Shown here: positions 14,835 through 19,983 of the stretch, one piece after another
Position numbering within the stretch: the first letter of the stretch is position 1
How the letters are laid out: every line of letters starts with the position of its first letter
IMG/VR virus record: IMGVR_UViG_3300034375_003846
Location: 1 to 24,529 of that record
Source: a virus
Reading direction: 5' to 3' (one strand)
Length of the DNA stretch: 24,529 nucleotides
Notes under the pieces: generated by a model
What the model was told of the DNA's origin: nothing
The model's database searches: none
What the model saw: only the letters and a program-made list of their open reading frames with translations
Program-made: the position numbers and the translations under genes

Positions 14835-15237
14835 TTTTATCGTTTCCTATCGTATACTTAGACACGAGATTCCATTGTGCTTTTTCTCTATATGGCACAA
14901 TTTTAATACTTCTCATTGAGAGTTTTTCTCCAACATCATCCACTAAATTCACCAGCCCCCACTCTGCGAGCAACGCAGAGATTGTATTTCTCCTTTGTGC
15001 GTCCTCATCTGTGAAGTTCGTTCGACCACTTTTGCCATCGAGAATAAACAATTCCTTGAAATGTAGTATAGCATATCTTCCACGCTTATGTAATATATGA
15101 CAGGATTGATTCAGCGTCATATTCTGCTTGGATGCTATACCTATTCTCGTAAGGGTTTCTTTAACTTTCAGGAAGTTTTCATCACCTGGTAAAGTAACTT
15201 CAACACCCAGCCCATTAAAAATATCATCAGTTGCCAT
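14818..15237 (-). CDS. regA: RegA translational repressor
   Basis: RegA binds the initiation regions of several early phage mRNAs and blocks ribosome binding, including its own message in T4. The 139 residues align by eye with T4 RegA over almost the full length: ENFLKVKETLTRIGIA, NQSCHILHKRGRYAILHFKE, DGKSGRTNFTDEDAQRR, LLAEWGLV and the C-terminal KYTIGND. An N-terminal extension of about 13 residues and a longer acidic tail differ from T4. ATG at 15237 has GGAG 7 nt upstream, but this site lies in the 3' arm of a perfect 8-bp hairpin (15241-15262), and a CTAAATA box lies just beyond it. The neighbours are gene 62 and a GIY-YIG nuclease gene. Confidence 0.95.
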   Translation of the reverse strand: MATDDIFNGLGVEVTLPGDENFLKVKETLTRIGIASKQNMTLNQSCHILHKRGRYAILHFKELFILDGKSGRTNFTDEDAQRRNTISALLAEWGLVNLVDDVGEKLSMRSIKIVPYREKAQWNLVSKYTIGNDKNENST

Positions 15238-15240
15238 TTT

Positions 15241-15262
15241 GTCACTCCTTCCTCGGAGTGAC
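15241..15262 (-). promoter_or_regulatory. Hairpin burying the regA ribosome binding site
   Basis: On the minus strand GTCACTCC pairs perfectly with GGAGTGAC around the loop GAGGAA. The 3' arm contains GGAG, the Shine-Dalgarno site 7 nt before the regA ATG. Transcripts reading through from upstream would hide this site. No T-run follows, so it is not a terminator. Confidence 0.75.
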
Positions 15263-15729
15263 TATTTAGATTTTTTCGCGTTCTTGTTGCCCTTCAGAGC
15301 CTCTGATATGTTCTGTCGGTGCTCGGCGGACTTCTTCTTACCCTTCTTCGCTTCGGACATCTTCCTACGGGTCTCGGCGGACTTCTTCTTACCCTTGAGA
15401 GCTTCTGAAATCTTACTTCTATGCTCTGGTGTTTGTGCGCCGTTAGTGTAGAACTTCTGACGAGCCGTTGCTTGATTGAGAAAGCGGTCGTCCTTGTGGA
15501 CTTGATACTTGTCATGTAACTGAGCTTCAGCCTCTCTGGCTTCTTGCTCTGTGTTGTGCTCCGATAGAACGATCGGGACGAACTCGTCTGTTGGCATAGA
15601 CTTGATCACCTTGCTGCTGGAGAAATAGCTAACCCACAGATCGTTCGCCGACTTTGGTTTTCGACTGCCGATGTAGAGCTTCCGGCTGGGTGTGTGAACG
15701 AGCAGATAAACATAAGGTAACGCTTCCAT
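15262..15729 (-). CDS. GIY-YIG homing endonuclease with NUMOD3 repeats
   Basis: This is a free-standing homing endonuclease of the Seg/I-TevI type, which cuts DNA lacking the gene and spreads by recombination. The 155 residues begin with the GIY-YIG core: YVYLLV at 6-11, LYIGS at 18-22, and a later segment EAREAEAQLHDKY carrying the probable metal-binding Glu. The C-terminal third consists of NUMOD3-like DNA-binding repeats of about 17 residues (SKISEALKGKK, RKMSEAKKGKK, QNISEALKGNK), visible also as a 23-bp direct DNA repeat with 51-bp period at 15323-15345 and 15374-15396. ATG at 15729 has GGAGG close upstream. It is inserted between 62 and regA, a typical intergenic site for T4-type seg genes. 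Confidence 0.92.
   Translation of the reverse strand: MEALPYVYLLVHTPSRKLYIGSRKPKSANDLWVSYFSSSKVIKSMPTDEFVPIVLSEHNTEQEAREAEAQLHDKYQVHKDDRFLNQATARQKFYTNGAQTPEHRSKISEALKGKKKSAETRRKMSEAKKGKKKSAEHRQNISEALKGNKNAKKSK
15263..15269 (-). promoter_or_regulatory. CTAAATA late-promoter-like box before regA
   Basis: The minus strand reads ATCTAAATAG, overlapping the stop of the GIY-YIG gene and touching the 5' arm of the regA hairpin. If it acts like T4 TATAAATA, the start point about 6 nt downstream would fall within the hairpin's 5' arm. Confidence 0.5.
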
Positions 15730-15751
15730 AGATCCTCCGGTGAGTTTTATC

Positions 15752-15758
15752 TATTTAG
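15752..15758 (-). promoter_or_regulatory. CTAAATA late-promoter-like box before the GIY-YIG gene
   Basis: The minus strand reads CGCTAAATAGATAAAACTC, 22 nt before the ATG at 15729, in the short gap after gene 62. The 8-mer CTAAATAG is also found at the end of the same gene (15262-15269). Confidence 0.45.
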
Positions 15759-15771
15759 CGTTTCTACCTTT

Positions 15772-16161
15772 TTAGCGAATCTTACCCTTACCGCCTGTGT
15801 TGAGTTTCTGACGCAACTCTGACATTTGCTCTGGTGTGAGCAGATCGGCAACTTCCATCGCACGCTGCGAAGAATATCCATACACCTGCTGAATGACCTT
15901 TACATCGTCCTCAATGTTCGCTTTGTGCCATCGACTAAATCGGCTCTTCTGACGAATGGATGTTCGCAAATAATCGAACTGGAGCTTATGGTCGATCCAA
16001 TGTCTTCGGTTCATCTCATTTGCGAACAATACGGTATCCGAGAAGTAACTCAGAGTCCGATTGATCGGAAACGGAGGATACTCCTTTTCCGCGAACTCGT
16101 CTTCGTCCATCAACGGCTGCTTGCTCTTATTGATGGAGGTGAGAAAATCACCCAACTTCAT
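15772..16161 (-). CDS. 62: Clamp loader small subunit (gp62-like)
   Basis: This protein pairs with gp44 to load the sliding clamp onto primer-template DNA. The 129 residues match the short clamp-loader A subunit of environmental T4-like phages (Phage_clamp_A type as I recall): KLGDFLTSINKSKQPLM, AEKEYPPFPINRTLSYF, DTVLFANEMNRR, and VIQQVYGYSSQRAMEV. T4 gp62 is longer (187 residues). ATG at 16161 lies within the preceding gene's end (14-nt overlap) with GGAG 8 nt upstream. In T4 genes 44 and 62 are adjacent and coupled; here about 2 kb with three genes separates them. Confidence 0.92.
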   Translation of the reverse strand: MKLGDFLTSINKSKQPLMDEDEFAEKEYPPFPINRTLSYFSDTVLFANEMNRRHWIDHKLQFDYLRTSIRQKSRFSRWHKANIEDDVKVIQQVYGYSSQRAMEVADLLTPEQMSELRQKLNTGGKGKIR

Positions 16162-16573
16162 CTATTCGTCTCCATGTGCCATGTAGAAACTCGTGGGCAG
16201 ACATATGATCGTGAATGATCGGAATCTTATGATCTTGGGCAAACTCAAATTCAATTTGAGTGCCTGTTCCCTTCTCCCAGCCTGGTGCTAAGAATAGCAT
16301 ATCTGAACGAGAAATCAACACCAGATCCTTGCCAATACAGTCCTCGTACTTCATTAGCCCACGATCATATGCCCACATATCCATCTCCAGCGGGCATATA
16401 ACTGCCCACCCGAGATTGGTAAACACCGCAGAGTGATACCGGAGGAGGTCGCGATTCTTTTTTTGATCCTCCTCCGGTAACTTACCACCATCACTAAATC
16501 TTCCACCAACATAGATTAGCGGCATTTGCTTGATACGTTCATCGTAGAACGACTTGTTGTAAATGTCACTCAT
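16148..16573 (-). CDS. Nucleoside 2-deoxyribosyltransferase-like protein (DUF4406-like)
   Basis: This 141-residue protein has the flavodoxin-like layout of the nucleoside deoxyribosyltransferase family. A first strand reads LIYVGGRFSD, then N-x-x-x-x-x-x-x-x-A-type helix and GWAVICPLEMD, then CIGKDLVLISRSDMLFLAPGWEKGTGTQIEFEFA, and KIPIIH at the end. The Ser-Asp and the Glu residues in the IEFEFA helix are at positions used by that family for catalysis and ribose binding. Members exchange or hydrolyse bases of deoxynucleosides or deoxynucleotides, so a nucleotide-salvage or host-DNA-degradation role is possible. The start codon lies in the loop of a small hairpin, and no good ribosome binding site precedes it, suggesting coupling to the upstream nuclease gene. 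Confidence 0.75.
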   Translation of the reverse strand: MSDIYNKSFYDERIKQMPLIYVGGRFSDGGKLPEEDQKKNRDLLRYHSAVFTNLGWAVICPLEMDMWAYDRGLMKYEDCIGKDLVLISRSDMLFLAPGWEKGTGTQIEFEFAQDHKIPIIHDHMSAHEFLHGTWRRIDEVG

Positions 16574-16582
16574 TTCAGTGAC
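16565..16582 (-). promoter_or_regulatory. Small hairpin with start codon in its loop
   Basis: On the minus strand GTCACT pairs with AGTGAC around the six-base loop GAAATG. The loop contains the end of the upstream stop region and the ATG of the next gene. The arms are the same six bases as the core of the regA hairpin. Confidence 0.4.
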
Positions 16583-17978
16583 CGTGCATTTGCTCGTGGC
16601 ACTCTACATGAAGAAGCTCACAATTATCAGGAATCGTGGGCCCACCCTTTGAATGCGGAATCGGGCTGTGATGTGCTTGCATATTATCCCAATCCAATTC
16701 CTTTCCACAATGAAAACAAACTCCTTCCTGACGCTTCCACACAATCGTCTTATCACTTGCGTTAAAGTATCGTTTCCTGTGAGTAAGCGGCTTGATAGAC
16801 ATTGATTCCAATCCGCCATTGTTCAAAGTGTGCTTCATCACAAGGTTATACTTTGACCTCCACTCTTCCCCAAACCAACCACTCACAATCGCTCCATACT
16901 CACTTTTGCGATTCCCGGGCAAGTTGGCCTTCAACTCTTCGTGTGCTGCAAGCCATGATGAAGTATACTTACCTGAATCACGAATAATTTTCGAGATAGG
17001 CTTATCATACATTATCTCCATTCCAAGCATATGATGAATCATACCATCAAAAGTTGCAAGAGACGAAAATGACTTCAAACCATTAGGAGCTTTAGACATG
17101 ACGACATAGATTTTATCTAACATATCGAGAACTTCAAGAACACATTCGTCTCTCAACTGCGCGTCACGATCCGCCAGTTTTCTCCAAAGACCTTGCGTAT
17201 TATTCGGGCCTACATACAATGATCGCCGAAGATTCTTACTGTTAACAAATTCGTAGATGTTCTTGCCGTCAACCAATTTCTTCCAAGCAATAGCAAAGAG
17301 CTTAGTGGCAACAGTATCCAGCTTGTGTCTCTTAATATGTGAAGAAGTTAATCCATCTCCAGCTTGCATCGCAGCAAACAAAGGATGTTGAGCATGTCTC
17401 CCTAGTCTAGCCAACACGGGAGATTTGACCTGAGCCTTACTGCCACGAATAAGAACGCGAACAATATCACGAATTTCCACATTAAAAGAATTTAAGTATT
17501 CCTCTTCGTTGACCTTTGTTCCATCGTTGAGCTTACGGAACACAACGCCAGTCATTTCCGGCGTCAAATCCTTGTAGATTACGATGTCAATTTTATCATA
17601 ATCCAAAAATCTGTCCCTATCCTCCTTGCTTAATTCACTCCACACGAGTTCTTCGTTATCAGGAGAGAAGGGAGGAGTCCACCCAACAAAACCTTCTTTG
17701 AATCGTTGAAGAGCAAGAGATCGGTGACTTCCATCAACAGCCTGATATTCTCCAGTGAATTTACCATTGTTATCATAGATTTCAGCGATAGCCATCTTAT
17801 AAAGATAACCATAATTCATAACTTCTCTAATGAAATCACGTTCACGTTCAGGGCTGTTAGCCTCAGTATCTCGCTGGCCAGGAGGATGCCAATTAATATC
17901 CATAGAAAGCATTTCACGAATTGTGAGCTTTCCATCTTTCAAATTTTCAGTTCGATATTCAGAGATATAATCAGACAT
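16575..17978 (-). CDS. DUF262/ParB-like protein fused to an HNH nuclease
   Basis: This is a 467-residue two-domain protein. The N-terminal part has IYDNNGKFTGEYQAVDGSHR followed by SLALQRF, the DGxxR signature of DUF262/ParB-like NTPase domains (GmrS type uses DGQQR), then FRKLNDGTKVNEEEYLN, another hallmark of DUF262. The C-terminal 55 residues form an HNH nuclease with a zinc-binding knuckle: CFHCGKELDW, then AHHSPIPHSKGG, then N and HVECHEQMHG. GmrSD Type IV restriction enzymes join DUF262 with a DUF1524 HNH domain and cut modified phage DNA; this protein has the same general design with a different HNH type. ATG at 17978 has AAGGA 9 nt upstream; the frame continues to 18029 without a better start. 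A role in excluding rival phages, homing or host-DNA degradation is inference. Confidence 0.85.
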   Translation of the reverse strand: MSDYISEYRTENLKDGKLTIREMLSMDINWHPPGQRDTEANSPERERDFIREVMNYGYLYKMAIAEIYDNNGKFTGEYQAVDGSHRSLALQRFKEGFVGWTPPFSPDNEELVWSELSKEDRDRFLDYDKIDIVIYKDLTPEMTGVVFRKLNDGTKVNEEEYLNSFNVEIRDIVRVLIRGSKAQVKSPVLARLGRHAQHPLFAAMQAGDGLTSSHIKRHKLDTVATKLFAIAWKKLVDGKNIYEFVNSKNLRRSLYVGPNNTQGLWRKLADRDAQLRDECVLEVLDMLDKIYVVMSKAPNGLKSFSSLATFDGMIHHMLGMEIMYDKPISKIIRDSGKYTSSWLAAHEELKANLPGNRKSEYGAIVSGWFGEEWRSKYNLVMKHTLNNGGLESMSIKPLTHRKRYFNASDKTIVWKRQEGVCFHCGKELDWDNMQAHHSPIPHSKGGPTIPDNCELLHVECHEQMHGH

Positions 17979-17979
17979 A

Positions 17980-18261
17980 CTAAAGAATCCTTTCAAACAA
18001 ATGGTCATACACAAAAAGTGTGTAGTCATGCTGTAAGCCTAGCTTACGTTGATTTTTTACGTTACCTGTTTTTGTTTTTTGTGAGTGCAATTCCGCCATC
18101 AACTCACCAAGTGCAAAGACTGCCTGTTGGGTATCACATCCAGCCACTCTTTCTGTGATATAGTCTCGCATCTTATTATCGAGCCATTCCCATTCAGTTT
18201 TCGTCATTGGATCGTCGAACTGAGATTTAACTGGCCACTTCACATATTTCAATGCACCCAT
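17980..18261 (-). CDS. Small protein between gp44 and the DUF262-HNH gene, unknown
   Basis: This is a 93-residue protein I do not recognise. It is rich in Trp and charged residues at the N-terminus (KYVKWPVKSQFDD, TKTEWEWLDNKMRDYI), then a helical middle (QQAVFALGELMAELHSQ) and a basic C-terminal half. ATG at 18261 lies 8 nt after the gp44 stop with GAGGAGG directly upstream. It occupies the place where gene 62 follows 44 in T4, but does not resemble the small clamp-loader subunit, which is found at 15772-16161. Confidence 0.7.
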   Translation of the reverse strand: MGALKYVKWPVKSQFDDPMTKTEWEWLDNKMRDYITERVAGCDTQQAVFALGELMAELHSQKTKTGNVKNQRKLGLQHDYTLFVYDHLFERIL

Positions 18262-19955: not shown

Positions 19956-19983
19956 AGTATAGTTACTAAAGCACAAATGTCAA
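19956..19983 (-). promoter_or_regulatory. Sigma70-type promoter of the replication operon
   Basis: On the minus strand the -35 box TTGACA (6 of 6) at 19978-19983 is followed after 16 bp by TATACT (5 of 6) at 19956-19961. The -35 box lies inside the end of the DUF3310-like gene. The expected start is near 19949, giving a leader of about 37 nt before the clamp ATG. Confidence 0.85.

Follow-up and report, generated by a model that had tools for sequence, protein, structure and literature searches.

A late-promoter-like box and a ribosome-binding-site hairpin suggest an early/late translation switch for regA in uncultured T4-like phages

Introduction

In T4-like phages, a hairpin that locks the ribosome binding site in long messages, combined with an internal late promoter, has been described for I-TevI, e, soc, 49 and segB of T4, as well as for Aeh1 mobE (PMC2988022, PMC3014915); the known cases are late genes that share their long messages with early and middle products (PMC2988022). 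Here, we describe an element of this kind in front of regA in a viral stretch of 24,529 nucleotides (IMG/VR record IMGVR_UViG_3300034375_003846, positions 1 to 24,529; hereafter "the window"), in which a late-promoter-like box directly adjoins a hairpin that pairs the regA Shine-Dalgarno (SD) sequence. RegA is known from T4 as the classic global repressor of translation, and in T4 the sliding clamp links late transcription to replication; control of RegA's own timing is little discussed in the reviews consulted.

The closest precedent, already invoked in the original prediction for this locus and confirmed by the literature, is T4 I-TevI, the td intron endonuclease, for which a stem in the readthrough mRNA (the early message) locks the SD and a late promoter lying inside it yields an RNA without the 5' arm (PMC2988022). 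Leaders of T4 e (lysozyme), soc and 49 likewise contain inhibitory stems in long transcripts that are relieved via internal late promoters, with relief on late transcripts having been shown for gene e (PMC3014915). Aeh1 shares with the window both a CTAAATA late box (PMC1524935) and the use of a stem that locks a ribosome binding site, in that case for mobE (PMC2988022). The target at our locus differs from all of these: (i) unlike I-TevI and the Aeh1 case, it is a core regulator of the replication cluster and not a mobile endonuclease, with CTAAATA or ATAAATA as the box; and (ii) unlike e, soc and 49, which are expressed late, regA encodes a repressor of early genes. In another Aeromonas phage, Ah1, regA has no leader of box plus hairpin. 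No report of a hairpin or late promoter of this kind at regA was found in the open-licence literature, and we infer that a known switch wiring has here probably been given a new and biologically telling target.

The regA leader and its hairpin

On the minus strand, the leader reads AAATCTAAATA-GTCACTCC-GAGGAA-GGAGTGAC-AAA-ATG, with the box (15269-15263) abutting the hairpin (15262-15241) and the SD GGAG seven bases upstream of the regA ATG at 15237 (Table 1). Computed folding with RNAfold returned exactly the perfect 8-bp stem proposed from the letters alone, SD in its 3' arm, and CTAAATA stands directly upstream as had been described. The late +1 was placed by analogy with T4, where the box occupies -13 to -6 (PMC1524935); the predicted start at 15257 would remove five of the eight pairs, in agreement with the earlier expectation that a start some 6 nt past the box strips most of the 5' arm. 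The stem thus pairs the SD in readthrough RNA, and the box is so placed that a late RNA beginning at the predicted +1 would lose the 5' arm.

Table 1. Features of the regA leader and its surroundings in the window
Feature	Position	Strand	Evidence or remark
Late-promoter-like box CTAAATA of regA	15263..15269	-	Aeh1-type late consensus; CTAAATA or ATAAATA in relatives
Hairpin 5' arm GTCACTCC	15255..15262	-	Folding; predicted late +1 at 15257 cuts off first five bases
Hairpin loop GAGGAA	15249..15254	-	Folding
Hairpin 3' arm GGAGTGAC	15241..15248	-	Carries regA SD GGAG (15248-15245)
regA, translational repressor, 139 aa	14818..15237	-	phrog_242, E 8.5e-48
Free-standing GIY-YIG homing endonuclease, between gp62 and regA	15262..15729	-	phrog_314, E 3e-27; stop TAG in CTAAATAG
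Second CTAAATA, before endonuclease gene	15752..15758	-	SD there not locked
gp62 clamp-loader subunit, upstream gene	15772..16161	-	phrog_225, E 3e-38
Sigma-70-like promoter TTGACA-16-TATACT, before presumed clamp gene	19956..19983	-	Consensus match alone

The 71-nt stretch folds at -15.2 kcal/mol (z -2.7, with 2/200 shuffles equally good; z -3.2 in a repeat), and none of 500 spacer shuffles matched the contiguous SD-pairing stem directly behind the box. In readthrough RNA, the predicted cost of unpairing regA nucleotides -14 to -7 is 12.8-13.5 kcal/mol, dropping to 2.7 kcal/mol for an RNA that starts six bases after the box; the median for 29 gene starts of the window is 3.9 kcal/mol. By this cost, the regA start ranks first of 92 in a 135-kb relative that has the regA switch too (G003), and second in both G001 and the window, the single costlier start in the window being an internal one inside another open reading frame (ORF), i.e., a gene-caller artefact. 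Leaders of the same design in other phages cost 8.7-14.8 kcal/mol to open, falling to 0.4-6.5 kcal/mol at their predicted late starts; for other genes that follow such boxes, the cost is 0.6-7.2 kcal/mol. An Rfam search of the window gave no match to a known RNA family. The RNA-binding residues K14, T18, R21 and W81 (T4 numbering) are invariant, and RegA of the window looks functional for that reason.

Conservation and a survey of regA leaders

The expectation that relatives retaining regA would still pair at this junction held for the close clade (L002-L009, 85-98% RegA identity), in which hairpin and box are kept. More distant switch lineages keep the box, its position and the SD pairing, with different stem letters. 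In L009, ATAAATA replaces CTAAATA and the gp62 stop lies elsewhere, indicating that the box is not merely a stop codon. The exact window element occurs in eight viral contigs, every one already known via regA. By contrast, T4, Phi1, Ah1, Thanatos-2, phiM19, Ochrobactrum phage OC and marine cyanophages have regA without this hairpin; in T4, Phi1, phiM19, Ochrobactrum phage OC, Ah1, Thanatos-2 and others, gp62 and regA abut, overlap or nearly adjoin. Since so many distant T4-like phages keep regA without it, the hairpin is a lineage feature and not a universal one. No isolate carrying the switch was found among those examined or by DNA similarity.

To place the element in context, 199 distinct regA leaders from viral contig loci plus isolates were compared, a box being called near when [AC]TAAATA lay within 45 nt of the regA start and a leader locked when its opening cost was at least 9 kcal/mol. 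Median costs were 9.6 kcal/mol with a near box, 2.8 where the box lay farther off (for the most part marine cyanophage-like leaders) and 2.9 without a box; locked leaders numbered 14/24, 0/69 and 2/106, respectively. Near-box leaders were thus locked far more often than the rest (14/24 vs 2/175; Fisher 2e-13, leaders counted without correction for kinship).

The locking stems are built from different letters: GTCACTCC/GGAGTGAC in the window, ATAACCTCA/TGAGGTTAT in L096, ATAGTCTCA/TGAGGCTAT in L265, ATAGTCC/GGACTAT in L056 and L085, and ACTCCC/GGGAGT in L078. Within the L089/L056 clade, three pairs are altered on both sides (A-U to G-C, C-G to U-A and U-A to C-G). Swapping arms between phages lowered the number of contiguous pairs from 75 in the native combinations to a mean of 61.6 (p 0.004); the MAFFT leader alignment misplaces some 3' arms and was excluded from pair counts. 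L243 has its late box within the loop of the hairpin, with all of the 5' arm (AAAACTCC) upstream of the box, as would be expected if removal of the 5' arm is all that matters; by the folding model, this leader would be the same kind of switch in a different geometry. When placed on a tree of 119 RegA proteins, the switch trait requires five changes, four or more of them by supported branches, with gains and losses indistinguishable because the RegA tree is short and partly unresolved.

Two further kinds of leader were seen. Just before regA, L477 has a TTAAATA box and a 13-bp stem (AAATAACTTTCAT/ATGAAAGTTATTT) ending at the start codon. Marine cyanophage-like leaders, among them those of L022, L028 and L207, have a late-type box, ATAAATA, about 55-68 nt before regA and no SD-locking stem; leaders of the latter kind suggest, from their sequence, that regA may be transcribed late there as well.

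The box as a probable late promoter

The box of the window matches the T4-type late promoter form (TATAAATA-like); CTAAATA itself has been described as the late promoter of phage Aeh1 (PMC1524935), and NATAAATA is the late box of cyanophages (PMC2984593). CTAAATA occurs five times in the window, always on the coding strand and always between genes or at gene ends. Across the window, G001 and G003, 35/50 coding-strand cases of [AC]TAAATA lie outside genes, vs 0/13 for [GT]TAAATA, a control that shares the TAA; the gene calls behind these counts are crude, and G001 and the window overlap in gene content. The strand bias of CTAAATA was dropped as promoter evidence, a reversed control word being strand-biased too. 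In G003, boxes precede the genes for tail sheath, tail tube, scaffold, head-tail adaptor, baseplate wedge, head closure and a gp32-like single-strand binding protein.

Elsewhere in the window, a hairpin built in the same way but weaker, CTAAATAACTCTTCATTCATAGGAGGAATATATG (22006-21973), precedes a 78-aa ORF and is kept in G001; its opening cost is 7.0 kcal/mol in the long RNA and 1.9 in the late one. At 7101-7040, CTAAATA is followed by a hairpin (GGTGGAGG...CCTTCACC) before a short ORF, the SD not being covered.

Proposed switch and alternatives

We consider it likely that the hairpin and late box form an early/late translation switch for regA, a reading put forward in the original prediction and supported by the present analysis. 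In this model, mRNA from far upstream, initiated at the clamp promoter and continuing through gp44, gp62 and, where present, the endonuclease into regA, would contain both arms, and the hairpin would hide the SD, leaving regA with little translation. After the onset of late transcription, polymerase with the late sigma factor would initiate at CTAAATA, and the resulting transcript from about 15257, minus five of the eight 5'-arm bases, would allow regA to be translated. RegA, a repressor of early mRNAs, would then appear late and help to shut early protein synthesis; as judged from relatives that keep the arrangement with quite different letters, it is probably made only late in infection.

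Several points weigh against this proposal. Opening costs are model energies from computed folding, and the loop GAGGAA contains a second, poorly spaced AGGA. Contigs of the window's clade, which are fragments, had no structural genes by phrog_23 or PF07068, giving no tail-sheath or Gp23 match; because no clade contig has recognised structural genes, the role of the box in this clade rests on analogy and position. In L010 (73% RegA identity), the box and inner five pairs are kept and the outer pairs broken. About nine near-box leaders (L035, L048, L088, L187, L228, L231, L244, L250 and L439) are not clearly locked, and independent origins of the switch would depend on a short protein tree.

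The main rival to the promoter switch is translational coupling, complete or partial, in which a ribosome ending at the upstream stop would open the 5' arm and regA would follow translation of gp62 or the endonuclease, the box being incidental or additional; both could act together. Relative to the box end, the upstream stop finishes at -3 to +1 in the window, L002, L010, L056, L085, L089, L090, L258 and L096, and in most switch phages a stop at or in the box is within reach of a terminating ribosome. However, in L009, L265, L103 and L241 the stops end 11-29 nt ahead of the box end, a distance that is probably too great, and the stem persists; moreover, the gene upstream of regA in the window has been swapped for an endonuclease with the element unchanged, and coupling leaves the [AC]TAAATA box unexplained. 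We thus regard coupling as unlikely to be the explanation. A chance hairpin without function is very unlikely: short hairpins are common, as the two equally stable shuffles of the 71-nt stretch illustrate, but the conserved position, the compensatory changes and the tight association with the box all speak against it.

We give still less credence to a protein-binding operator, whether for RegA autocontrol or for gp43 as at T4 gene 43. T4-like phages do have such operators near the same gene cluster (PMC3014915), and the gene 43 operator is, like the regA element, a hairpin near a ribosome binding site; unlike it, that operator is bound by gp43, has a conserved loop, sits some 40 bases before the start and has no tie to a late promoter (PMC3014915). 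The loop and stem letters of the regA element vary between lineages, and descriptions of RegA sites have them A+U rich and unstructured (PMC3014915), both of which make an operator improbable. Just as improbable is a transcription terminator or an mRNA 3'-end or processing signal: the plus-strand hairpin followed by TATTTAGATT scored as terminator-like, but the gene strand has no T run, the neighbouring genes run along the minus strand, the plus-strand T run is weaker in relatives lacking the endonuclease (TATTTAGCG), and a terminator would not require SD pairing.

Returning to the early/late switch, were regA locked until late transcription, the phage would have a built-in delay, with early proteins silenced only once both replication and late transcription have begun. 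We lean slightly towards the broader view that several uncultured T4-like lineages repeatedly built such a late-promoter hairpin from unrelated stems, changing regA from an early into a late gene and turning a repressor of early genes into a timed off-switch that would act only after late transcription, and hence DNA replication, begins. If true, its having arisen repeatedly, with different stems in separate lineages, would be a natural experiment on the origins of RNA switches, for which the regA element offers exact, testable positions.

Gene neighbourhood and the endonuclease insert

Replication-cluster genes around regA follow one another on one strand, the minus-strand series being the presumed clamp gene (19912-19238, identity presumed from gene order), gp44, gp62, the GIY-YIG homing endonuclease, regA and gp43. 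The promoter-like site at 19983, before the clamp gene, is a possible source of the readthrough mRNA. The original prediction, accurate in its sequence observation, made no mention of the endonuclease gene between gp62 and regA, and is corrected here in that the endonuclease stop codon TAG overlaps the box plus the first stem base.

The GIY-YIG label was taken from the sequence (YVYLLV...KLYIGS). By comparison of junctions, the endonuclease is an insertion between gp62 and regA, its homing activity being predicted: L002, L007 and L009 have an empty junction, which in L002 reads gp62-CGCTAAATAGTCACTCCGAGGAAGGAGTGACAAAATG. The insert abuts the box, with CTAAATAG providing the endonuclease stop codon and the regA box and hairpin left unbroken. 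That the element is carried by the endonuclease, as for I-TevI, was ruled out, as empty-site relatives have an identical box and hairpin; because these close relatives keep both, the element belongs to regA, and box and hairpin predate the insertion. A like switch for the endonuclease itself was unsupported (SD opening cost 2.6 kcal/mol in the long RNA, 2.4 in the late).

The insert's own leader, CGCTAAATAGATAAAACTCACCGGAGG (window 15262-15774), resembles a diverged copy of the regA leader CGCTAAATAGTCACTCCGAGG, and CTAAA flanks the insert on both sides. One further contig, L082, has the same endonuclease insert, 99.7% identical. Between gp44 and gp62 (window 16148-18029), there is a 484-aa ORF that has an HNH endonuclease domain at its C-terminal end, and after it comes an ORF that is nucleoside deoxyribosyltransferase-like; the pair breaks the usual gp44-gp62 order.
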